Source of the DNA: a virus
Strand: one strand, 5' to 3'
DNA: 28,055 bases
IMG/VR virus record: IMGVR_UViG_3300006919_000317
Location: 1-28,055 of that record
Under the pieces are notes generated by a model. That model was not told where the DNA came from and did no database searches. It saw only the letters and a program-made list of their open reading frames with translations. The translations under genes were made by a program, and so were the position numbers. This document shows positions 3,319 to 27,812 of the stretch, piece after piece; position 1 is the first letter of the stretch, and the number at the start of each line of letters is the position of its first letter.

Positions 3319-3854
3319 TTTTTATACACAAGGGAATGAAACCTTTAAGTTCCCAACAAATTAACCGCAGAACGCAGAGGTATATTGATAACGATTGGCC
3401 TCAATGGAAGCGTGAGCGGTCTATACGTAAAGCTGATGGACTATTCGATACGTACATGGATGGTGTTGAAGCTGACACAGACACTAACAGAGCTAACAAC
3501 GAGTTTAACTGGAACTTAGAGCAATACCGAAAGGCTGTTCTAAGACTAGAAGACTATGTGTTGTCTGTTGGTGTGCCTGAAGTAACTGTTGAGGTTCTTA
3601 CAGGTGAGACAGAGTACGATGAAACAACAAACCAAGTTGTAGAAGTAACGGAAACTCGAGTTATACCTGCTATCGAACCTTTAGAAGCTACTATTACGGT
3701 AGCTACCTACGATGAAAACGGTGAAGAAGCGGGCACTGAAGAAGTAGCTAACCCTTTAATCGTTAAGGATGAAGAAGAACGGGCTCAAGCTCAGTCTATA
3801 GTAGACAATGCATCTGACGAAGTAGTTAATTTTGATCAATCTGAGGAAGAGTAA
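3315..3854 (+). CDS. Hypothetical protein, acidic C-terminus, in fibre operon
   Basis: I do not recognise this 179-residue protein. The N-terminal third is basic and polar (QQINRRTQRYIDNDWPQWKR), followed by a helical stretch around residues 55-85 (NLEQYRKAVLRLEDYVLSVG). The C-terminal part is strongly acidic and beta-rich with two short similar strands (VTVEVLTGETEYDET and ATITVATYDENGEEA). No membrane segment or signal peptide is seen. It is translationally coupled to the upstream fibre gene by an ATGA overlap, and its stop overlaps the next start by one base. Small proteins directly after fibre genes are sometimes fibre-assembly chaperones or minor tail components; either is possible here, but nothing in the sequence decides it. 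Confidence 0.55.
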   Translation: MIFIHKGMKPLSSQQINRRTQRYIDNDWPQWKRERSIRKADGLFDTYMDGVEADTDTNRANNEFNWNLEQYRKAVLRLEDYVLSVGVPEVTVEVLTGETEYDETTNQVVEVTETRVIPAIEPLEATITVATYDENGEEAGTEEVANPLIVKDEEERAQAQSIVDNASDEVVNFDQSEEE

Positions 3855-4117
3855 TGGATTTTACTTTAAATAAAAGCATACCAGTTATGTTCTTGTTAGC
3901 ATTAGGGCTGCAGTTTGTATACTTTGTTAGTTTTATTACTGAATTAGATAATAATATATTAAGTAATGAAAAAGAACTTGTTCGTCAGGACGCTAGGCTT
4001 ACAGCCATAGAAGAAAACGTACAGGGTCAACAGGTTGCATTGGCTCGTATAGATGAAAACATACGTCATATACGAGAAACTGTAGATAAAGTATTAAATA
4101 AAGATTTTTTAAAATAG
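3854..4117 (+). CDS. Small membrane protein with coiled coil
   Basis: This 87-residue protein has one clear transmembrane segment (about residues 9-29, IPVMFLLALGLQFVYFVSFI) followed by a heptad-like coiled coil (about 35-80, with ARLTAIEENV and ALARIDENIRHI). The N-terminus is short, so the coiled coil would project into either the cytoplasm or the periplasm. The ATG overlaps the preceding TAA by one base (TAATG). The TAG stop forms part of the ribosome-binding site of the next gene. One TM segment plus a coiled coil is typical of small phage lysis accessory proteins (spanin-like or pinholin-like), and a holin lies 2.7 kb downstream, but no cysteine-lipobox partner is seen. A structural anchor is an alternative. 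Confidence 0.55.
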   Translation: MDFTLNKSIPVMFLLALGLQFVYFVSFITELDNNILSNEKELVRQDARLTAIEENVQGQQVALARIDENIRHIRETVDKVLNKDFLK

Positions 4118-4126: not shown

Positions 4127-4441
4127 ATGGCAGACCGTAAAGGACCCCTAGCTAAACGAAAAAGAGATCCTCGACTAGAAAGAGCTGGGGTATCTGGTTT
4201 TAACAAACCAAAACGTACCCCTAATCACCCTAAAAAATCACACGTAGTTGTGGCAAAAGAAGGTGATCGAGTTAAGACTATACGCTTCGGAGAGCAGGGA
4301 GCAAGTACTGCGGGTAAACCTAAAGCAGGTGAAGGTGCTAGAATGAAAGCTAAGCGTAAAAGCTTTAAAGCTAGGCACGGGAAGAATATTGCTAAGGGTA
4401 AAATGTCAGCAGCTTACTGGGCTGATAAGGTGAAGTGGTAA
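4127..4441 (+). CDS. Lys/Arg-rich basic protein with N-terminal KGPLAK motif
   Basis: Small, highly basic protein of 104 residues with no membrane segment. It opens with MADRKGPLAKRKRDPRLERA, continues with a Pro/Lys-rich linker and a short beta-like patch (SHVVVAKEGDRVKTIRFGEQ), and ends in a helix-prone segment KARHGKNIAKGKMSAAYWAD. That C-terminal signature is one I associate with small conserved proteins of unknown function in marine and other podoviruses. The charge suggests nucleic-acid binding or association with the virion. The gene follows a strong RBS and its stop overlaps the start of the next basic protein by one base. It shares the KGPLAK motif with the C-terminus of that neighbour, which implies a linked function. 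The exact role is unknown. Confidence 0.65.
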   Translation: MADRKGPLAKRKRDPRLERAGVSGFNKPKRTPNHPKKSHVVVAKEGDRVKTIRFGEQGASTAGKPKAGEGARMKAKRKSFKARHGKNIAKGKMSAAYWADKVKW

Positions 4442-4842
4442 TGGCTAGAACAAATGAAAAGTTATGGGCTAAAGCTAAGGCTAAAGCTAAAGCTAAGATG
4501 GGCGGTAAGCACTCAGCTAGGGCTATGCAGTTAGCTGGTAAGTACTATCGGGAAATGGGTGGTGGTTACACAGGTAAAAAGACTAAGGCTCAAAAGTCTA
4601 TGACTAAATGGACTAAAGAAAAATGGGGTACTAAATCTGGAAAGAATAGTACTCAAGGGCCTAAGGCTACTGGTGAGCGTTACTTACCAAAGAAAGCTAG
4701 GGAAGCTTTATCTTCTAAAGAGTATGCTGCAACTAGTAAAAAGAAAAGGGAAGATACTAAAAAAGGTAAACAGTTTAGTAAGCAACCCAAAAAGATTGCT
4801 AAGAAGACAGCTAAGTATAGAAAGGGTCCTCTAGCTAAATAA
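4441..4842 (+). CDS. Lys-rich basic protein, DUF5872-like, C-terminal KGPLAK
   Basis: This 133-residue basic protein starts MARTNEKLWAKAKAKAKAKM and continues with GGKHSARAMQLAGKYYREMG, which resembles the small phage domain called DUF5872 (a short helical segment with a SARxxQLAxxxYxxxGGGY pattern). The rest is a Lys-rich, low-complexity tail ending in RKGPLAK. I chose the ATG at 4441 (TAATG overlap with the upstream stop) rather than the in-frame GTG two codons earlier. The Lys-Ala run is encoded by a hexanucleotide repeat. The protein is likely to bind DNA or acidic partners through charge, comparable to histone-like tails. Whether it is packaged or acts in the cell is not evident. The DUF assignment is from memory of the pattern. 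Confidence 0.68.
   Translation: MARTNEKLWAKAKAKAKAKMGGKHSARAMQLAGKYYREMGGGYTGKKTKAQKSMTKWTKEKWGTKSGKNSTQGPKATGERYLPKKAREALSSKEYAATSKKKREDTKKGKQFSKQPKKIAKKTAKYRKGPLAK
4468..4497 (+). repeat. In-frame hexanucleotide (Ala-Lys) microsatellite
   Basis: Five consecutive GCTAAA/GCTAAG units encode an Ala-Lys run at the N-terminus of the DUF5872-like basic protein. The unit length is a multiple of three, so slippage would change the length of the basic helix without breaking the frame. Confidence 0.8.
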
Positions 4843-4853
4843 TAAGAGGACGT

Positions 4854-5507
4854 ATGAATAGATTACTTATATTGCTTTTACTAGCATCACAATTATCTTT
4901 TGCAGCAGACAACACTAATACTCAAGAGGGTAGCTTAAATACAAGCAATGTAAACTCTACAGTATCTAGTAATAATGTAACAGAAGATAAGTCAGTATCT
5001 AACACGTACAACGGGGCAGGGTCTAGTAGTGAAATACCTGTAGGCTCTGCAATAACCCCAACGTATATGTCTAATGGGAGTGAAACCTGCTTGCAAGGTG
5101 TTGGGGGTTCTATCCAAACAGTTGCAGTAGGGATTAGCACTGGCAGTTACGAAAAGGATAATGACTGTAATAGACGAAGGGACTCTAAAGTTCTAAGCGA
5201 CCTTGGGATGAAGGTAGCTGCTATTGCAAGAATGTGTCAAGACCACGGAGTGTGGAGGTCTATGTTTGTCTCAGGCACACCCTGTCCACTAATGCATAAT
5301 GGTAAGTTAGTGGTAGGGAAAAGAGCTTTTCTTTTAATGAAAACAGAACCACAAACTTATATACCTGACTATGGTAAGCTTGGTAAAAAGCCAACAGATA
5401 CTCAGGAGTGGTATAATAAAATACTAGGGATCGGAGAGACAATAAATGAAGAAGACACTGAAGGCGTTATTTCTATTAGCGGTAAGTTCCGCAGCACACT
5501 CAAGTGA
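4854..5507 (+). CDS. Secreted (Sec signal) protein of unknown function
   Basis: Protein of 217 residues with a classical Sec signal peptide: MNR, a Leu-rich core (LLILLLLASQL) and a small-residue cleavage region near residues 16-18 (SFA/AD). The mature part begins with a long Asn/Ser/Thr-rich stretch (about 20-60), followed by a Cys-containing domain (Cys at ETCLQ, DNDCN, ARMCQ and GTPCP) that could form disulfides in the periplasm. No catalytic motif is recognised. It begins 11 bases after the basic protein, and its 3' end overlaps the next secreted-protein gene by 62 bases, unusually long for this window. A phage-encoded exported pair beside a holin could act in lysis, envelope modification or superinfection exclusion; I cannot choose between these. 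Confidence 0.62.
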   Translation: MNRLLILLLLASQLSFAADNTNTQEGSLNTSNVNSTVSSNNVTEDKSVSNTYNGAGSSSEIPVGSAITPTYMSNGSETCLQGVGGSIQTVAVGISTGSYEKDNDCNRRRDSKVLSDLGMKVAAIARMCQDHGVWRSMFVSGTPCPLMHNGKLVVGKRAFLLMKTEPQTYIPDYGKLGKKPTDTQEWYNKILGIGETINEEDTEGVISISGKFRSTLK

Positions 5508-6282
5508 GTTAGATAATCTTATACAAACATCTAATGATATTGTAAACCAAATAGACTTGGGTATAAATTTAGTTGGTGCAGCTACAGAGTATAGCTACCA
5601 GGGTAGTGGACTATCCTCAGGGAACCTATCAGAATCTGCACATATTACTACAGAACAACTAGAAGCTTATAACAGTGCATTGCTAGGTATGAGTAACTAT
5701 AAACCTTTTGGGGACTTGCAGGCTGTACTTGAAGATAAAGCAGCAGGTGAGCTAGACCTTATGGATTCTGCTATTGATACCTTTACTGAAGCTGTAGTTG
5801 AAATGGTACAAGTAGTAGAAGTAGCAGAGATGTCAGAAGCAGCTGCTACACCACAAGAGGAAGCTGATGTTCAAGAGTTTGTAGCAAGTAATCAAGAGAT
5901 GTTAACTATATCTCAAGATACTGTAGATAGCTATAATGAATCGTTAGATGATATTGAAACCCATGCAAACAATGCTAGTGCTTATATTGCTGTAGCTAAT
6001 AACGAAGCAGCAGTAAGTTTCTTAGAGCAGGGTATAGAGAATGCTAACACTACAGCAGAACAGACTAACATTTTTTATGATGCTAATCAACAATGGGTAG
6101 CTATGGGCTACAATACAACTAGAAACTTAACAGCAGTATACCTTAACGGATCTGATGGTATAGGCATTGACTTATACACATCAGAAGCAGATATCCTTGC
6201 ATTAGGTAGTGACTCAGACTTTTATCTAACTGGACCTACAGCGTTAGGATATAATTGCTTTATGTTTGAAACGGATTGTTAA
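5446..6282 (+). CDS. Secreted, acidic helical protein of unknown function
   Basis: Protein of 278 residues with a Sec signal peptide: MKKTLKALFLLAVSSAAHS with a probable cleavage near residue 19. The mature protein is acidic and largely helical, with long runs rich in Glu, Ala and Gln (about 90-205), then a short beta-rich C-terminal domain ending in two Cys (GYNCFMFETDC). The start lies within the 3' end of the upstream secreted-protein gene; the 62-base overlap is in a different frame and the start follows a purine-rich stretch (GGATCGGAGAGAC). The paired arrangement of two exported proteins suggests that they act together in the periplasm. No family is recognised, and it could be envelope-targeted or an assembly accessory. 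Confidence 0.6.
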   Translation: MKKTLKALFLLAVSSAAHSSELDNLIQTSNDIVNQIDLGINLVGAATEYSYQGSGLSSGNLSESAHITTEQLEAYNSALLGMSNYKPFGDLQAVLEDKAAGELDLMDSAIDTFTEAVVEMVQVVEVAEMSEAAATPQEEADVQEFVASNQEMLTISQDTVDSYNESLDDIETHANNASAYIAVANNEAAVSFLEQGIENANTTAEQTNIFYDANQQWVAMGYNTTRNLTAVYLNGSDGIGIDLYTSEADILALGSDSDFYLTGPTALGYNCFMFETDC

Positions 6283-6284
6283 AT

Positions 6285-6764
6285 ATGGATCTAGAAAAAA
6301 CAGAATTAAAGATAGGTAACACATCATTCAAAGGGGTGTGGATAGCTATCGTACTTACTATTGGTACTAGTATTGGGGGTACCGTGTGGACAGCTTCTAG
6401 CTTATACTCAAGACTTGAAGCAGTAGAGTCCCGAAAGATCCCTAGTATAAAACCATTAGAAGAACAAGTACAACTTATACAACAGCAGCTAATAGATAAC
6501 GATGTAAGCAAATTACAGGGTAAATTAGCGGAGTTAGGAGCAAACCTTATTACCATTAAGGGTCAACAAGAAAAGCTCTTAGAATTGAATACAGACGTTT
6601 CTGAGCTATCTAAGGATATAGAGACTATAAAAGGTACAGTTGCAGAAGCTAAGGTTATTTCGGATACATTGCAAGATTATTCCGATGATTTTAAAACTAT
6701 AAAGAGAGAGATAGAAGATCTCTGGCAGGGTATGGATTACTTATCTAACCCTTTAGGTAAATAG
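6285..6764 (+). CDS. Membrane-anchored coiled-coil protein
   Basis: Numbering from the ATG at 6285 (MDLEKTELK), this is a 159-residue protein with a single TM segment at about residues 16-38 (GVWIAIVLTIGTSIGGTVW) followed by a long coiled coil (about 40-145, with LEEQVQLIQQQLI and KLQGKLAEL). A TTG three codons earlier is in frame, but the ATG just past the upstream stop is the simpler start. It resembles, in plan only, the small membrane coiled-coil protein at 3854. Its place between secreted proteins and the holin suggests an envelope or lysis role, such as an inner-membrane spanin-like subunit, but no matching outer-membrane lipoprotein is evident. A membrane-tethered scaffold is another possibility. 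Confidence 0.58.
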   Translation: MDLEKTELKIGNTSFKGVWIAIVLTIGTSIGGTVWTASSLYSRLEAVESRKIPSIKPLEEQVQLIQQQLIDNDVSKLQGKLAELGANLITIKGQQEKLLELNTDVSELSKDIETIKGTVAEAKVISDTLQDYSDDFKTIKREIEDLWQGMDYLSNPLGK

Positions 6765-6773
6765 GAGAGGACT

Positions 6774-7172
6774 ATGTTAACACAATTGATTGGCCCAGTA
6801 ACTGGGCTGTTAGATAAATTTATAGAGGATAAAGATAAGAAGAATGCCATTGCCTTTGAACTCTCGACTATGGCGGAGAAACACGCACAGGAGCTTGCGA
6901 AAGCTCAACTTGAAGTTAATAAGACGGAAGCGGCGCATAAGAATTTATTTGTTTCGGGCTGGAGACCAGCTGTGGGTTGGACTTGTTGTGTGGGACTTGC
7001 GAGTAACTACATACTTATTCCAGTGGCAAATTTTTCGCTTGCTCTTGCCAATTCTACCATTGAGGTCCCTGTTCTAGACCTGTCAACAATGATGCCAGTC
7101 CTAATGGGTATGTTAGGGTTAGGTGCTATGAGAACAGCAGAAAAAGTAAAAGGTGTAAACAGGAATAAATAG
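6774..7172 (+). CDS. Holin, GTA/podovirus 3-TM type
   Basis: Probable holin, the inner-membrane protein that times lysis. The N-terminal helix (about residues 10-55) is amphipathic and charged (DKDKKNAIAFELSTMAEKHA). It is followed by the signature WRPAVGWTCCVGLASNYILI and two further hydrophobic segments (about 65-85 and 100-118), the last with MGMLGLGAMRTAEKVKGV. The WRP...GW...N..L and LGLxxxRTxEKxxG pattern is that of the Pfam 3-TM holin first described for gene transfer agents (PF11351 type), and the length of 132 aa is normal. It has a good RBS (AGGAGAGG). No endolysin gene sits next to it, so the muralytic partner must be elsewhere. Confidence 0.85.
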   Translation: MLTQLIGPVTGLLDKFIEDKDKKNAIAFELSTMAEKHAQELAKAQLEVNKTEAAHKNLFVSGWRPAVGWTCCVGLASNYILIPVANFSLALANSTIEVPVLDLSTMMPVLMGMLGLGAMRTAEKVKGVNRNK

Positions 7173-16437: not shown

Positions 16438-19400
16438 ATGAGCGACAACAAACAAGTATATTATGGGCAAGACGCAATAGCTCAAGTCGAACAAAACATA
16501 GGTAGAGAACTAACCTATGCGGAGAAACGAGTAGTTGAGGAAGAGGGGTACGTTGCTACCCCTTACCTTGACACTAAAGGTATTATTACACAGGGAGTTG
16601 GTCAAACTGGGGAATGGATTGAAAAAGGTTTTGAAGCTGCTTATCAACACCATGTTGACAGAGCTGAAAGACGAATCCCAGGCCTAAGAGATCTACCAGA
16701 AGCCTTGCAAGCTGAGCTAATACAAGCTGAGTATAGAGGTGACTTGGGTACTTCTCCGACTTTTGTACGATTATTAAATGAAGGTAACTACGAAGAAGCG
16801 TCTTCTGAGTTCCTTGATAACAATGATTATCGCAGATCACAGGAAGAAGGTACAGGCGTGCACAAGAGAATGAAAAAAGTCTCTGATGCAGTAGCCTCTT
16901 ATGCCTCAGAAAAGAGGAGAGCAGTACCTGAGGCTGCACTTCTCACAGACGACTTTCAAGTCGGAAACTCAGGGTTCTCTTTTCTTGACGGTGATACTAT
17001 CATTAATCAAGAAACTGGGGAGCGTGTTAGGTTTCCAGAAATAGACTTAGCTGAGCTTACTAAAGTAACTCGTGAAGAGGGTTACTCAGTAGGTGAAGCT
17101 GGTGGTGAGAAGGTAAAACAATATGTTTCTTATCTTGCCAATAAGTATGGATACACAAACGTAACAACAACTGATAAAGAAGATAAGTATGGTCGTAAGA
17201 TTGGGGACCTTAGGGACTCCAATGGAAACTCTTTTACTAACTTCTTGATTAGTGCAGGTATCGCAAGGCCTACCTTTATAGGTGAATCTACACACATGAT
17301 GTCTGATGATAGCTATACAAGGTTTTTGTATGGTGAAGGTCTTAGAGCCCTGCGTAAGGATGAACCACAAACAGATTATGAACTAGCTTCAGAGCTAATT
17401 AAAGTAGCAAGCCTTGATCCTACTAACGGTGTACCTCTTGCTAAGATGGATGCATTTAATGAGGAAGAGTATGCTTCATTTCCTGATTTGTTTTCGGGTG
17501 TAGTCTTAAGAAACAAAGATGCAAACTTTGATAACACATCTAAAACACCATGGTCTGATGCATGGGGTGCAGGTATTAGTTCTGCAAGTAATGCTTTTAA
17601 GCTTACTGGTGCAGCTCTTATGGATACTATGGACCTTGATAATGCTCAAGCCTGGCTAGAAGGTAGTGTAGCTGAAAGTAAATTTACATTAGCTAGAGCA
17701 CCTAAGGTTAGACTTAGTTATAAGGATGTAGATTGGACTTCGTTCGATCAGGTTACAGAGTTCTTAGGTGCTAATGTTGCAATGTCCTTGCCGTTTATGG
17801 GTGTTACTGCAGCTTCGGTACTTGCTGCTCCATTTACATATGGTGATAGTCTTGCAGCACCTGTAGCTATGTACTCAGGTATGATACTTGATGAAATGCC
17901 AGGCAGAATGGAAGATAAAAGCTATGGTGCAGCCCTTGCTGGTGGTACTCTTGCAGCTGCATTGGATCGTTTAGGTCTTAAGGCAGCAATGGGTACTTTT
18001 ACGCCTAGTCATTTTCTTACAGGAGAAGCTAAAGAAAAAGCATTAGATGCTATATTGCAAGCTGGTATGGCTGAAACTAGAGATCAAGCTAAACAAGTAT
18101 TAGCTAACTCTACTAAACGTGAGCTGCTATCTTATGTAGGGGATGCTGGTGATTTTGTAAAGAACCAAATTACTAAGTCATACATTTTAAAACAGACAGC
18201 TAAACGATTGGCTGTTGCTGGTGGTATTGAGGGGTCTACAGAGGTTCTCCAAGAGCTTACCCAATACACTGCGGCTGTACTTGGATCTGATAAAACTTGG
18301 GACTACGCTGAGTTAGAAGAACGTATGGCTAATGCTTTGATTGCTGGTGGTATGATTGGTAGTGCCTTCTCTGTACCTGGCGCTGCATTTCAAGCAGGTT
18401 CATGGACAGATGCAGGTGTTGCTAAATCTGAGTATGATAAAAGATTTGATGATGCTACTACAGGGTTTAGGCAAGAAGCGGCTGATGATACTTCTGATGG
18501 GACAAAGCTAGGCGTAGTACCTAGTATCACATACAAATTAAACAATGTATGGCGAAGTCTTAGAAGTAGAGATGAAGCTGATAGAAGGTCTGGTAGAGAC
18601 CCTGACAGCAGGGAAAAGTTTGATACAGTAGCAGATGCTGGTGAGACTAGAAGAGAAGAGCGTACTCGTACACAAAAGCTTAAGGATGCTTTGTCAGATC
18701 CTGTAGCGGCATTACGTACCGCTCTAGATACTCGCATTACCACTGATATGCTACAAAAAAGTAAAGCACTACGATTACTATACGATCAGTTTGGTGGTAG
18801 GAAAAATAAAACATATGGTGGTGTAGACTTTCAGAATGATAAGATACTTAACTTTACACACTTTGAAAGTTTCTTACGTCCTATTGAGGATGTCCTAAGT
18901 AGCTTTAAGGTTAAGGCTAAGTCTTATGGTAAAAGAAAGAAAGCTATATCAGCTTTAATGTATGACTTTTATTTATCGGAAATAAAACCTATTACTGATG
19001 GTAAAGGTAATAAGAAACACATGGGTGTGGATCAGATCTTAGAGGCTATTGATTGGAATAACTTATCCAAGCAAGAGTTTACAGACAACGCTCAAGCTAT
19101 CAAAGAGTTTATGGCTGATCTGTATGCAGTAGATGATGCAATGTTTCGTAACATTACAGCAGTTCAAGAAGCCACAGGTGAAACTAGAATTGGTAACTTG
19201 CAAGACCACATCTTTAGAAGTAAAACATTTTTAAAATCAGCTATAGCTAAGGATAGAGCTAAGTTCTCTAAGTTGTTACAAGAAGAGTATGACTTAAGCC
19301 CTGAGGTAGCCAATGCTGTTACTGATTTAATAGTTGATAATCCAGATGTTAACACATTAGATGAAGCCTTTGACTTAACTAAGGGTGGTATCTTCCCCAA

Positions 19401-20991
19401 GACACACAAGAGACGTTCATTAAATATCTCTGATAACCCTAAGTTTTCTAATTACTTAGAGCAAGATCTGTTTAGAAACCTTGAGAACCTAATGAAAGGT
19501 TCTGCACGTTACATGACTATGAGTAGGTTTATTGGTCGTGACAGTAAGGTTCTTATGGAACAGCTTAGACAAGTATATGAGGACCTAAGGGGTGACGCTG
19601 AGATCGGGTCAGAAGCTGAGATAGCAGCCCGAGAAGCTATAGAAGATATTGCATCAGACATTAGAGATTTGGTTAACGCTGATTCTGGTAACTATAAAAG
19701 GATTGATAATACAGCTATACGTGGAGCACAAAAGTTCTTAACTGTTACAGCTACATTATCTATGTTACCACTAGCAGCTATATCATCTATTGTAGAACTT
19801 GCCTTAGTATCTAAAGGTGCATCATTACGTAACTTACATAAGAATGCAGGATCATTTGGGATGCTGGCAGGTAAGGAAATGTATGAGTACTTTAGAGAGA
19901 TGGGTAGGATCACTGGTGTTGCACCTAAGTTTAGTACATTTGACTGGCAGTTAAAGTCAAGAGCTAAAAGATTAGGTGAGGACTACAGGCACAAGGATAT
20001 TGATGACCCCCGTAAGATGATGAGAGAAGCAGGCTTCCTGTCGCAAAAGACTGGTGCTGCTACAGTAGTCGGTGTATCTGAGACTAACCAGTTTACAGAA
20101 GCATTGATGAACTCGTTCTTTAAAATTATTGGTTTGCAAGGTATTACTAACCTTACACGTACCATGAGGGCAGCTATCTACAATGATTTCTTAATAGAAA
20201 ATATTGACATCATCCATAGACAAGAAGGTAAACCACCTACTAATGAATCTATGGAAGCTGAAAAGATGTTAAGGTATATGGGTATACCTATAGATAGAAT
20301 GCTAGAGCTATCTCGTAGACTGATGGTAGCTCAAGACATGGGTGTAATGCCTGATGAAGCTTTGCTTGCTGCTTGGGATAAAGAGTTTAACAATGGTTTG
20401 ATAAACTTTATTAATGCTGCAGTACCAATGCCAGGTGCTATGAGTAGACCTTTGTTCTACAGTAACCCGCACTTTGCAATGTTTACGCAGTTCCAAGGTT
20501 TTATCTCTGAGTTTACAGCAAATCACTTACCTAATATGTGGGATAGTATTAAGACTGCAAATCCAGGCATGAAGTTCTCAGCCTTTGCATCAATCATGTC
20601 TATGCTTATGTTAGGTTACGCTTCACAACATCTTAAAGATCTCATCAAGTTTGGTGAATCATCACCATATCTTTCTGATCAAGAGAAATATTTGAGAGCC
20701 TTGTACTCTACAGGGTTGTTAGGTACAACAGAAAGAATATGGAGTAACAATTATGTCTTGCCTCTCTACAAGGATAGAAGTAGAAATGCAGGAGAAGCAG
20801 TTTGGAATCTTGTATCAGGAGAAGCCCCTGTTGCAGGTATCTTTGAAAACATAGTGGGCTTCGGACAGGGTGTCATGGAGGGTAGTTCCCGTAGTATTAT
20901 GAAGAGAGGCTTAGGCTTAACTCCGCTAGGTCCCTTTAAACATAGACTGTATGACACATCTGTAGAACAAGGTTGGATAACAGGAGAATAG
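16438..20991 (+). CDS. gp16-like ejection protein with GH24 lysozyme and SNase-like domains
   Basis: Very large internal virion protein (1517 aa; T7 gp16 has 1318) injected at entry. Residues about 25-160 are a GH24 (T4-type) lysozyme: the E36, D45, T51 spacing matches T4 lysozyme E11/D20/T26, with DTKGIITQGVGQTG around it, and FVRLLNEGNYEEASSEFL resembles its C-lobe. Residues about 180-285 resemble staphylococcal nuclease: DGDT (D186), R198, D203, E206 and DKYGR (R253) match D21, R35, D40, E43 and R87. T7 gp16 carries a different, SLT-type muralytic domain at the same place. The remainder is helical, with small-residue and amphipathic stretches (about 430-660) and a C-terminal part including FTQFQGFISEFTANHLPNMW (about 1350). 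The ATG follows a good RBS (AGGAGAA) in a 25-base gap. Lysozyme assignment is strong; nuclease is probable; enzyme activities are inferred. Confidence 0.85.
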   Translation: MSDNKQVYYGQDAIAQVEQNIGRELTYAEKRVVEEEGYVATPYLDTKGIITQGVGQTGEWIEKGFEAAYQHHVDRAERRIPGLRDLPEALQAELIQAEYRGDLGTSPTFVRLLNEGNYEEASSEFLDNNDYRRSQEEGTGVHKRMKKVSDAVASYASEKRRAVPEAALLTDDFQVGNSGFSFLDGDTIINQETGERVRFPEIDLAELTKVTREEGYSVGEAGGEKVKQYVSYLANKYGYTNVTTTDKEDKYGRKIGDLRDSNGNSFTNFLISAGIARPTFIGESTHMMSDDSYTRFLYGEGLRALRKDEPQTDYELASELIKVASLDPTNGVPLAKMDAFNEEEYASFPDLFSGVVLRNKDANFDNTSKTPWSDAWGAGISSASNAFKLTGAALMDTMDLDNAQAWLEGSVAESKFTLARAPKVRLSYKDVDWTSFDQVTEFLGANVAMSLPFMGVTAASVLAAPFTYGDSLAAPVAMYSGMILDEMPGRMEDKSYGAALAGGTLAAALDRLGLKAAMGTFTPSHFLTGEAKEKALDAILQAGMAETRDQAKQVLANSTKRELLSYVGDAGDFVKNQITKSYILKQTAKRLAVAGGIEGSTEVLQELTQYTAAVLGSDKTWDYAELEERMANALIAGGMIGSAFSVPGAAFQAGSWTDAGVAKSEYDKRFDDATTGFRQEAADDTSDGTKLGVVPSITYKLNNVWRSLRSRDEADRRSGRDPDSREKFDTVADAGETRREERTRTQKLKDALSDPVAALRTALDTRITTDMLQKSKALRLLYDQFGGRKNKTYGGVDFQNDKILNFTHFESFLRPIEDVLSSFKVKAKSYGKRKKAISALMYDFYLSEIKPITDGKGNKKHMGVDQILEAIDWNNLSKQEFTDNAQAIKEFMADLYAVDDAMFRNITAVQEATGETRIGNLQDHIFRSKTFLKSAIAKDRAKFSKLLQEEYDLSPEVANAVTDLIVDNPDVNTLDEAFDLTKGGIFPKTHKRRSLNISDNPKFSNYLEQDLFRNLENLMKGSARYMTMSRFIGRDSKVLMEQLRQVYEDLRGDAEIGSEAEIAAREAIEDIASDIRDLVNADSGNYKRIDNTAIRGAQKFLTVTATLSMLPLAAISSIVELALVSKGASLRNLHKNAGSFGMLAGKEMYEYFREMGRITGVAPKFSTFDWQLKSRAKRLGEDYRHKDIDDPRKMMREAGFLSQKTGAATVVGVSETNQFTEALMNSFFKIIGLQGITNLTRTMRAAIYNDFLIENIDIIHRQEGKPPTNESMEAEKMLRYMGIPIDRMLELSRRLMVAQDMGVMPDEALLAAWDKEFNNGLINFINAAVPMPGAMSRPLFYSNPHFAMFTQFQGFISEFTANHLPNMWDSIKTANPGMKFSAFASIMSMLMLGYASQHLKDLIKFGESSPYLSDQEKYLRALYSTGLLGTTERIWSNNYVLPLYKDRSRNAGEAVWNLVSGEAPVAGIFENIVGFGQGVMEGSSRSIMKRGLGLTPLGPFKHRLYDTSVEQGWITGE

Positions 20992-25715: not shown

Positions 25716-27812
25716 TTAAGAAAAGAAATAATCTGAGCTAACTACCTCTTCAACTTTCAAGGTACCTAGTTCAGGTTGTGTTACAGAGTATCCTCTGAAG
25801 TCATCAATCAACATAGATTGAATCGTATCAAAGAAATTATCTACATTATATAACATGGCGAACTGCCACTTAGTATGTTCTATTAGTTTATCTACATCGC
25901 ATGCATGGGTAGAGAACGAGTCATGCACAGCACCAAAGGTTCCAGGGAATGCTTTGATTACCATAGCCATATGTGCTGCATCCATTGAGTGCACAAAGTT
26001 AGGTGAACATCCAGATGCAAACGATCTACGACAGGGTATTAAGTTACCATCTTTAGTTACTACAGGTATCTTAACGCTATGACCTATACGACCCAAGGTT
26101 CTTATGGTGCTTCTAAACGTCATGTTCTTTTGCTTCCACACTTCGTATAGCACAGGGAACCCTGAGGGTGTAGTCCATTCCAGGCAAGGCTTACCACTAT
26201 CTATTATAAAGTTAGTTACCTTTTGCAAGAACTTCATGGTCTTTAGGGGACCTACACATGTATCGTTGATAGCAAGTATTAAGTTCTTAGCAAGCAAATC
26301 ACAGTCCTCTCTAGTGATCTTATACTTCTTATCGTAACCTTCTACTTTACAATCATGATACATATTCTCTGCGATCTTACGTTGTCCTGCAGAGTAGGCT
26401 CTTGTCATAGACCCACGTTTAGCAATGCCCTTACGTATAGACTTCATTGGCATGTTACGTTCAGCAAACCATTCAGGCATACGAGCGATCAAACGTTTCG
26501 CAACCTGTACATAAAAGTCTTTTTGTATACTCTGAGGAACAAGTGATACTAACTCACCAGCTTGTTTATCTTTAGACATTGCGGCTAGGTGTTGCCAACC
26601 ATTGTTACTACCATCAACTGGTATAGGTAGGTGTGAGTAATACTCTCCTGTACTATCTCTGTACCCCTTTAGGTCCAAGCAACAAGCCAGTAGTGTTATG
26701 GGCTTCTCCGCTTCTACTCTGAACTTCAGGTTCTCTGCGTCCTCTATCAGACTCTTCATGTTCTGTATTGTCCACTGAGCCCTGTCATCTAAGGTCATCT
26801 TGTCTACTGAAATAGTATCTAAGCCTTCCTCTTCTAAGTGAGTCCTGTAGTCTTCGGTTAACCAGTCTAACGATGCTAACTCTTCTAGTGTATACGATTG
26901 ATTGTAAGAACACGCAGTGTGTATGCACAACCAGTAGAACCCACGCTCATCTAGTAACTTACTATCAGAGAACTCAAAGAGTCCCTTAGCCAAGTCAGAA
27001 CCTTGGAAGTTTAGGAAGGGTTCTGTATAGTAAACCCTGCCACGATAGTCACACTCCACCGCTTGGTAGAAAGTCTTATCACCAATAGCTCTAGCTTTGT
27101 TTAAGATAAACTTCATCTCGATTCTTTTAGATCTACCCTTGTCAGTCCTGTCCTCCATATCCAGGAACTTAGATACATTATCTCGTAATGCTTTTACTAG
27201 GGTAGTGTTAAGTCTCCAAGGAACTCTCTGTAGTTTATCTAATGCTTTAACAAATGGTTCGTTAAGACACTGACTAAAGTCTCTCTCTGAAGTCATACGT
27301 TTTATGTATGGCCTTTTAGTTACTGGGTTTCTCAGTCCACGGATAAGAGGGAACTTATGGAATGCAGTACCTAGCAGGGTAGCGTTCTCATAAGCTGCAG
27401 GTATTTCACCTAGCTCTTCCCACTTCTCTGTAAGGTATAGAACATACGGAGCACGAAACCCTTCGTACTCTCTTTCGATCTCTAGGAATCCAAGGATAAG
27501 GAAAGCTTCTATAAATAAATCACCTAATGAAAACAGTTCAGTGTAGGTGCTGTTTCTCAATCCTATCCTCGACACTACTGCGAGACCTATGGCAGACGAT
27601 GTAGCTGTTAGCTTGAACGGTTTACCGTTAGCTCTACGTGACTTAAGGAACACGCTCTGTGCAGCCTGCACTGCTGCAATGACTAGCTCCTCGTAGTCAA
27701 CACCGTAGTCTACATGTCTGTTAAGCAGTTCGATGCCCAAGTGATTTCTCCCTCGGGCACCTTCTCTGTTACTTCTAATGTACTCTGCTACTTTGTGAAT
27801 AGCATTAGTCAT
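25716..27812 (-). CDS. T7-type single-subunit DNA-directed RNA polymerase
   Basis: Phage RNA polymerase of 698 residues (T7 has 883). All core motifs are present: CDYRGRVYYTEPFLNFQGSD (DxxGR, R259), motif A VDGSNNGWQHLAAMSKD (D400), motif B KGIAKRGSMTRAYSAGQ (K465, Y473), CLEWTTPSGFPVLYEVWK, PNFVHSMDAAHM and motif C AVHDSFSTHA (D631). The Gly after the motif-B Tyr in T7 is Ser474 here. The part before the DxxGR site is about 166 residues shorter than in T7, so the promoter-binding N-terminal domain is reduced; the C-terminus ends in the usual Phe-rich tail (SSDYFFS). It transcribes phage genes from its own promoters, which I could not identify in the window. The start directly follows the TAA of the helicase gene. 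Confidence 0.95.
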   Translation of the reverse strand: MTNAIHKVAEYIRSNREGARGRNHLGIELLNRHVDYGVDYEELVIAAVQAAQSVFLKSRRANGKPFKLTATSSAIGLAVVSRIGLRNSTYTELFSLGDLFIEAFLILGFLEIEREYEGFRAPYVLYLTEKWEELGEIPAAYENATLLGTAFHKFPLIRGLRNPVTKRPYIKRMTSERDFSQCLNEPFVKALDKLQRVPWRLNTTLVKALRDNVSKFLDMEDRTDKGRSKRIEMKFILNKARAIGDKTFYQAVECDYRGRVYYTEPFLNFQGSDLAKGLFEFSDSKLLDERGFYWLCIHTACSYNQSYTLEELASLDWLTEDYRTHLEEEGLDTISVDKMTLDDRAQWTIQNMKSLIEDAENLKFRVEAEKPITLLACCLDLKGYRDSTGEYYSHLPIPVDGSNNGWQHLAAMSKDKQAGELVSLVPQSIQKDFYVQVAKRLIARMPEWFAERNMPMKSIRKGIAKRGSMTRAYSAGQRKIAENMYHDCKVEGYDKKYKITREDCDLLAKNLILAINDTCVGPLKTMKFLQKVTNFIIDSGKPCLEWTTPSGFPVLYEVWKQKNMTFRSTIRTLGRIGHSVKIPVVTKDGNLIPCRRSFASGCSPNFVHSMDAAHMAMVIKAFPGTFGAVHDSFSTHACDVDKLIEHTKWQFAMLYNVDNFFDTIQSMLIDDFRGYSVTQPELGTLKVEEVVSSDYFFS

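Follow-up and report, generated by a model that had tools for sequence, protein, structure and literature searches.

The window, that is, the whole stretch of DNA analyzed here (a virus record of 28,055 bases), carries three successive plus-strand genes, referred to below as A, B, and C, followed by a holin gene. These genes and other features of the window are as follows:

4854-5507, plus strand: gene A, 217 aa, ATG start, predicted exported protein (phrog_20531, E = 2.3e-13), with a signal peptide (approximately 4854-4904) followed by a disordered Asn/Thr/Ser-rich stretch, a four-Cys core, and a C-terminal tail
5088-5288, plus strand: four-Cys core of A (C79, C105, C128, and C144 of protein A)
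5433-5436, plus strand: Shine-Dalgarno-like GGAG of gene B, within gene A
5446-5507, plus strand: 62-base dual-coding overlap of A and B (the C-terminal 20 residues of A and the signal peptide of B)
5472-5498, plus strand: A tail motif S-[ILV]-S-x-[RK]-[FY]-R-[ST]-[ST], with the core of the B signal peptide in the alternate frame
5446-6282, plus strand: gene B, 278 aa, ATG start, with a signal peptide (approximately 5446-5502) and a mature helical bundle
6285-6764, plus strand: gene C, third gene of the module, with an N-terminal membrane helix, a helical, coiled-coil-like stalk, and a C-terminal NPL motif
6774-7172, plus strand: holin with three transmembrane segments, GTA type (GTA_holin_3TM, PF11351, E = 3.4e-20), outside the conserved core
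25716-27812, minus strand: single-subunit RNA polymerase gene (PF00940, E = 4.4e-58), near the far end of the window

The preliminary description of this DNA had placed A and B between a pair of basic proteins and a holin. The holin gene is indeed found downstream, but gene C separates it from B. The two basic proteins encoded upstream of A (positions 4127-4842; phrog_7595 and phrog_14910, families with no assigned function) recur near the module elsewhere. The small protein encoded at positions 3854-4117 begins with a hydrophobic helix, has a heptad-like tail, and is weakly similar to phrog_937 and to the Rz-like family phrog_739; it is a possible second envelope factor. The 1517-aa protein encoded at positions 16438-20991 shows a weak Phage_lysozyme match at residues 34-129 (E = 0.0033) that fails the cutoff.

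Export signals and predicted folds of A and B

The Sec signal peptides originally noticed on A and B were borne out by a rule-based test of our own, which calls for a positive n-region, an uncharged hydrophobic 9-mer, and a small-x-small site. Among the 22 plus-strand genes of the window tested, only A, B, and C pass this rule. Across the respective families, it is passed by 146 of 163 A proteins, by all 65 B proteins of the same helical type as in the window (B1), and by 75 of the 87 proteins of a second type (B2), as against 127 of 1428 other genes. Lipobox-like motifs, sought with a crude scan that also used a rule of our own, are absent from A and B of the window and were found in 4/163 A, 0/65 B1, and 2/87 B2 proteins.

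The mature parts of A and B, described at the outset as unrelated, have different predicted folds. The model of A, mostly confident over residues 80-192, has a beta hairpin and then helices in this region, and the Asn/Thr/Ser-rich part, which is very long in some phages, is predicted to be disordered. B was modeled as a bundle of helices plus a small C-terminal portion (mean pLDDT of 90.4), and confidence is low only at residues 1-16, within the signal peptide; some versions of B carry a carbohydrate-binding annotation. Searches of the PDB with the A structure produced no match (best Foldseek E-value of 2.0; best VIA-align Z-score of 3.5 over 33 residues), and those with the B structure produced only generic helical-bundle matches (best Z-score of 8.7 with an rmsd of 14.7; best Foldseek E-value of 0.54), results that do not count as evidence of new folds. 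At the sequence level, the profiles of A, B, and the additional module proteins p166, p128, p142, and A0 (see below) had no match among PDB sequences at an E-value below 0.1 (for A0, none at E ≤ 5), and A matched no Pfam family at E ≤ 1 and hence has no OmpA (PF00691) domain. None of the structural or sequence matches yields a function for A or B. The A proteins of the window, HTVC023P, Mosig, CRP-207, and CRP-810 all match phrog_20531, a PHROGs family with no assigned function, whereas none of these families matches B with a usable E-value.

The dual-coding overlap and the stop-free corridor

The coordinates of A and B confirm the 62-base overlap exactly. The remaining overlaps had been given as 1 to 14 bases; the other junctions are all short, but those listed range from a 25-base gap to an 11-base overlap. 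The long overlap is kept in relatives. A search with B retrieved 54 viral loci, and, with L023, L060, and L062 left out because A's end or B's start is missing, the overlap (measured with hand-chosen starts) is 56 to 77 bases long in 51/51 countable loci. Across a total of 170 loci, many of them near-duplicates, A and B overlap by at least 50 bases in 140 of 150 pairs, compared with 16 of 649 other conserved neighbor pairs; here and in the phase and corridor counts below, every open frame was taken from its earliest start, which makes the overlaps upper bounds. By type of B, such overlaps are seen in 65/65 pairs with B1, in 75/78 with B2, and in none of the seven with the pelagiphage type B3, where A and B overlap by 8 bases at most. 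Homologs that are encoded apart and devoid of signal peptides, an outcome that would have spoken against the original reading, are thus not what the families contain. With the full open frame of B, the overlap reaches 80 bases in CRP-207 and 161 bases in CRP-810; the deposited starts are shorter. A Shine-Dalgarno-like tetramer precedes B in 89 of 109 A-B overlaps, versus 8.9% of 19,217 ATGs in the same loci.

Both frames of the overlap are genuinely coding. Among 47 nonredundant loci (de-duplicated, and with a B that shares 50% identity or more with that of the window), third-position diversity, averaged over all pairs, drops from 0.562 outside the overlap to 0.281 inside it for A and from 0.566 to 0.225 for B, and no equal-sized block outside the overlap has a diversity as low (0/168 for A and 0/236 for B). 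In a de-duplicated set of 61 distinct tail segments of A, the Arg and the Phe/Tyr residues are found in 61/61 and the two Ser residues in 59 and 57, and the eighth motif position is [STR]. The Arg is encoded by CGN in 50 segments and by AGG in 11, and the Ser at position -5 by TCN in 43 and by AGY in 16, with the residues of B varying where these Ser and Arg codons switch family. Since the residues of the A tail stay fixed across codon families while B changes, the tail is held as protein. An overlap-aware count of substitutions between near pairs yielded 47 changes over 20 disjoint pairs, too few to demonstrate, on their own, selection on the tail of A. Selection on this tail would now maintain the long overlap, which probably couples the translation of A and B.

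The length and phase of the overlap can be traced to the genetic code. All 140 long A/B overlaps are in one phase, compared with a split of 76:74 for other same-strand overlaps in the same loci; in this phase, the third position of each A codon coincides with the middle position of a B codon. In signal-peptide codons, which specify hydrophobic and small residues, that middle position is mostly T or C, and no stop codon ends in T or C, so the frame of A cannot close within the hydrophobic core of the B signal peptide. The frame of A could therefore read through the signal peptide to the point where mature B has its first polar residue, usually an acidic one; the stop codon of A coincides with a Glu or Asp of B in 106 of 140 cases. 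The exported proteins p166, p128, and p142, whose genes seldom overlap the preceding gene, display the same property: these genes are open for at least 50 bases in the overlap phase in 126 of 203 cases and in the other phase in only 5 of 203, with 145/543 being the overlap-phase figure for other conserved genes. In phages with B2, overlap length and signal-peptide length are correlated at 0.93, a value that is partly circular, as the first acidic residue sets both ends; the weight therefore lies on the open-phase counts. We attribute the origin of the long overlap to this stop-free stretch of signal-peptide DNA in one alternative phase.

The overlap could, then, serve no purpose in itself and be a neutral consequence of the signal-peptide corridor. 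This view, which concerns the overlap only, has in its favor that the genetic code predicts both length and phase, but it is at odds with the retention of the overlap in A-B pairs relative to the control pairs and with the conservation of the tail motif of A through switches of codon family; we regard it as unlikely. The code explains how long the overlap is and in which phase it lies, but neither its retention nor the conserved tail of A. The corridor is a simple explanation, open to testing, of how long gene overlaps can come to end at signal peptides, and it also accounts for the truncation of such genes by gene callers, as in the starts of CRP-207 gp74 and CRP-810 gp52.

Gene C, additional exported proteins, and the spread of the module

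Gene A was found in 160 and gene C in 139 of the 170 loci; C lies two genes after A in 74 of these 139 loci and five or six genes after A in 48. An N-terminal membrane helix is predicted in 136 of 139 C proteins; a helical stalk comes next, and all 136 complete copies end in an NPL-like motif. The charge bias around the helix is slight (1.96 Lys/Arg residues before and 1.66 after it), and 108 of the 139 proteins also pass the signal-peptide rule. In comparisons that, like those of module layout, used representative loci, C resembled the Rz-like spanin family phrog_739 only weakly (E = 0.009 for locus L094 and 0.14 for the window), and the C profile matched only coiled coils among PDB sequences (best E-value of 0.0026).

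Phages with B2 encode three further exported proteins, p166, p128, and p142, between B and C in approximately 60 loci (e.g., L188:5388-5888, L245:2742-3128, and L246:6209-6637). None of them has a convincing database match. A pilin-like identity of p166 was considered and dropped, the FimH_man-bind match being confined to 1 of 43 members (E = 0.036), as was a chaperone-like identity of p128, for which no match was found.

Of the 152 loci that could be tested, 11, among them CRP-207, CRP-810, and ct7L0027 but not the window, have in front of A a gene for a lipoprotein of 71 to 86 aa, A0 (e.g., L001:5663-5923, L002:1725-1940, and L127:2298-2519, plus 8 other loci; unannotated in CRP-207 and CRP-810). 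A0 bears a minimal, cysteine-rich version of the four-Cys core of A (profile match to A with a probability of 96.7), and its gene overlaps the 5' end of A by 34 to 194 bases, so that these loci contain a chain, A0-A-B, in which each downstream gene starts within the preceding one. Two phages without A, HTVC010P (L279:25223-25585, E = 3.2e-8) and HTVC019P (L280:38973-39338, E = 1e-3), encode distant C-like proteins that lack the NPL end.

A, B, and C make up a conserved module of late genes in phages whose hosts are marine and, for the most part, Alphaproteobacteria. A profile search with A detected at least 596 A-encoding virus stretches in IMG/VR, whereas only 11 of 50,697 catalogued phage records matched, including six phages of Pelagibacter and two of Roseobacter. 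The module is carried by hundreds of marine virus contigs, relatives of SAR11 and Roseobacter phages. Two of the locus sets used here each comprise the best 80 of more than 580 matches and therefore lean towards their queries. No description of the A-B-C module was found in the literature searched, in which subscription journals are poorly covered, and the current annotations of its parts are hypothetical, "OmpA family," or "lysozyme." The CRP-810 gp51 "lysozyme" (L001:7267-7689) and the CRP-207 gp73 "putative lysozyme" (L002:3292-3873) are C proteins, and the "OmpA family protein" of CRP-810 is A, with no OmpA domain; these labels look wrong.

Outside phages, the core of A is found in exported Asn/Gly-rich proteins of alphaproteobacteria, in 17 (L167-L183) of 39 genome loci, identified as such by their titles and, for 14 of them, also by their open reading frames. 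These Hyphomonadaceae/Caulobacterales proteins share with A a signal peptide, a low-complexity stretch, and the four-Cys core. In contrast to A, some of them have an OmpA domain (PF00691), either at their own C terminus (L172 and L181) or in collagen-like tandem genes (L169 and L180), and no B-like gene was recognized downstream in the 14 cell loci. The OmpA-bearing homologs speak for an envelope location of A, and the cellular proteins are a possible source of A and a possible guide to its function.

Possible roles of A, B, and C in the cell envelope

The arrangement of A and B invites comparison with two-component spanins. According to a survey of 677 phages (PMC6139136), overlapped spanin genes occur in 228 of them, with overlaps of, e.g., 70 bases in T5 and 116 bases in DFL12phi1, lengths similar to those of A-B; no spanin was found in 91 phages, and gene callers often miss o-spanin genes in overlapped or embedded arrangements. 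As in the overlapped class covered there, A and B would be two envelope proteins, with the signal sequence of the second encoded in another frame within the 3' end of the first gene, and C, with its N-terminal helix and helical stalk, is similar to an i-spanin in size and layout. However, A has a cleavable signal peptide and no membrane anchor, B is not a lipoprotein, the i-spanin-like protein is encoded by the third gene (in the order A-B-C), and the overlap joins two soluble exported proteins. Neither A nor B fits an i-spanin or an o-spanin, and C is not overlapped with A0. An Rz/Rz1 identity of A/B was ruled out by the lack of a lipobox in either family; as A and B fail this defining lipoprotein feature, the pair is not filed as a spanin. 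We class it instead with overlapping phage envelope genes.

Our tentative proposal, which we favor over its rivals but hold with less than even confidence, is that A-B-C forms a late envelope-spanning complex that helps to breach the outer membrane when the host lyses, a spanin-like task performed by nonlipoprotein parts. In its favor are the export signals, the i-spanin-like layout of C, the weak match of C to phrog_739, and the scarcity of o-spanin-like lipoproteins in genomes with the module (see below). A and B would be exported by Sec to the periplasm or the outer membrane, and C would be held in the inner membrane with its helical stalk and invariant NPL end reaching into the periplasm; we infer the assembly of the three proteins, its location, and its part in lysis. 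The envelope action suggested in the preliminary description agrees with the data, which do not discriminate between lysis, adsorption block, and exclusion. The position on the side of lysis genes holds for the window, for HTVC023P, where an M15 peptidase gene adjoins C, and for L244, where a holin-family gene and a probable endolysin gene follow C, and within three genes after C the most-matched families are holin (10) and endolysin (9) among 125 proteins (a subset of the 198 proteins of 66 loci, plus L244). It does not hold for CRP-810 and HTVC202P, in which A-B-C is far from holin and endolysin, and linkage to a lysis cassette was therefore dropped as proof of function. The three extra exported proteins encoded between B and C in many phages are more than a spanin needs and count against the spanin-like proposal, as does the slight charge bias of C, which gives little indication of its topology.

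Eight complete genomes that carry the module yielded no convincing lipoprotein apart from A0 of CRP-207 and CRP-810. Applied to lambda, the same lipobox scan recovered Rz1, along with a second lipoprotein that we take to be Bor, and in EE36P1 it recovered a lipoprotein close to the putative lysis gene; it also reported one antisense frame of lambda, antisense frames of several genomes, and one unexplained candidate in Baldr (37082-37246). As no o-spanin-like lipoprotein was detected in HTVC010P and HTVC019P either, its absence is not specific to phages with the module.

Other roles have to be weighed against the same data. In superinfection exclusion or an adsorption block, A (with A0, where present) would bind an outer-membrane receptor from the periplasm and stop further phages, in the manner of Llp or Rtp45. 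A0, a small lipoprotein with a cysteine-rich version of the core of A, would suit this role, but A and B generally lack a lipobox, A-B-C sits among late structural and lysis genes, and the module is near-constant across unrelated phages, unlike exclusion genes, which are usually accessory. Llp of T5 and Rtp45 are small periplasmic phage proteins that A0 resembles in size and lipid anchor, whereas A and B are larger and are not lipoproteins, with no sequence relation shown. Known superinfection exclusion lipoproteins are small and periplasmic, and Rtp45 has a disulfide, according to PMC12685063. Overall, we find exclusion rather unlikely.

Slightly less probable still is a structure on the surface of the infected cell, such as an adhesin or fiber for aggregation or "sibling capture," an idea proposed for the curli of pelagiphages in PMC7029224 and PMC9599517, with A as the stalk or anchor and B as the displayed domain. 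The long Asn/Thr/Ser-rich stretches of A in some phages, the repeats of the cell homologs, which are Asn/Gly-rich or collagen-like and in some cases accompanied by OmpA domains, the carbohydrate-binding annotation of some B versions, and the three more exported proteins of phages with B2 are all in keeping with such a structure. Against it, no usher, CsgG-like protein, or secretion channel was recognized in the window genes scanned, p166 and p128 have no convincing pilin or chaperone match, and B of the window is a plain helical bundle. The pelagiphage curli (type VIII) likewise consist of exported proteins of marine phages, going by the same two sources, but their gene set differs: no CsgG, CsgF, or curlin match was seen in the proteins scanned, which were part of the genes of this 28-kb fragment, compared with Pfam and PHROGs. 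Finally, A and B might be virion or tail components whose hydrophobic N termini are not export signals, and in many loci the module does lie among tail, head, and terminase genes. The pattern of N-, h-, and c-regions in nearly all members, the four conserved cysteines of A, the signal peptides and OmpA domains of the cell homologs, and the model of B, in which the N terminus is the only low-confidence part, make this highly improbable.

A broader version of the lysis proposal, somewhat unlikely as it stands, would make A-B-C, joined by A0 in some lineages, a third kind of outer-membrane disruption system, mostly devoid of an o-spanin lipoprotein and widespread in phages of marine Alphaproteobacteria, with its genes chained by stop-free-corridor overlaps under a rule that would be general for exported-gene pairs. 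If the module does open the outer membrane, it would supply the final lysis step that is missing for phages infecting some of the most abundant bacteria in the ocean.
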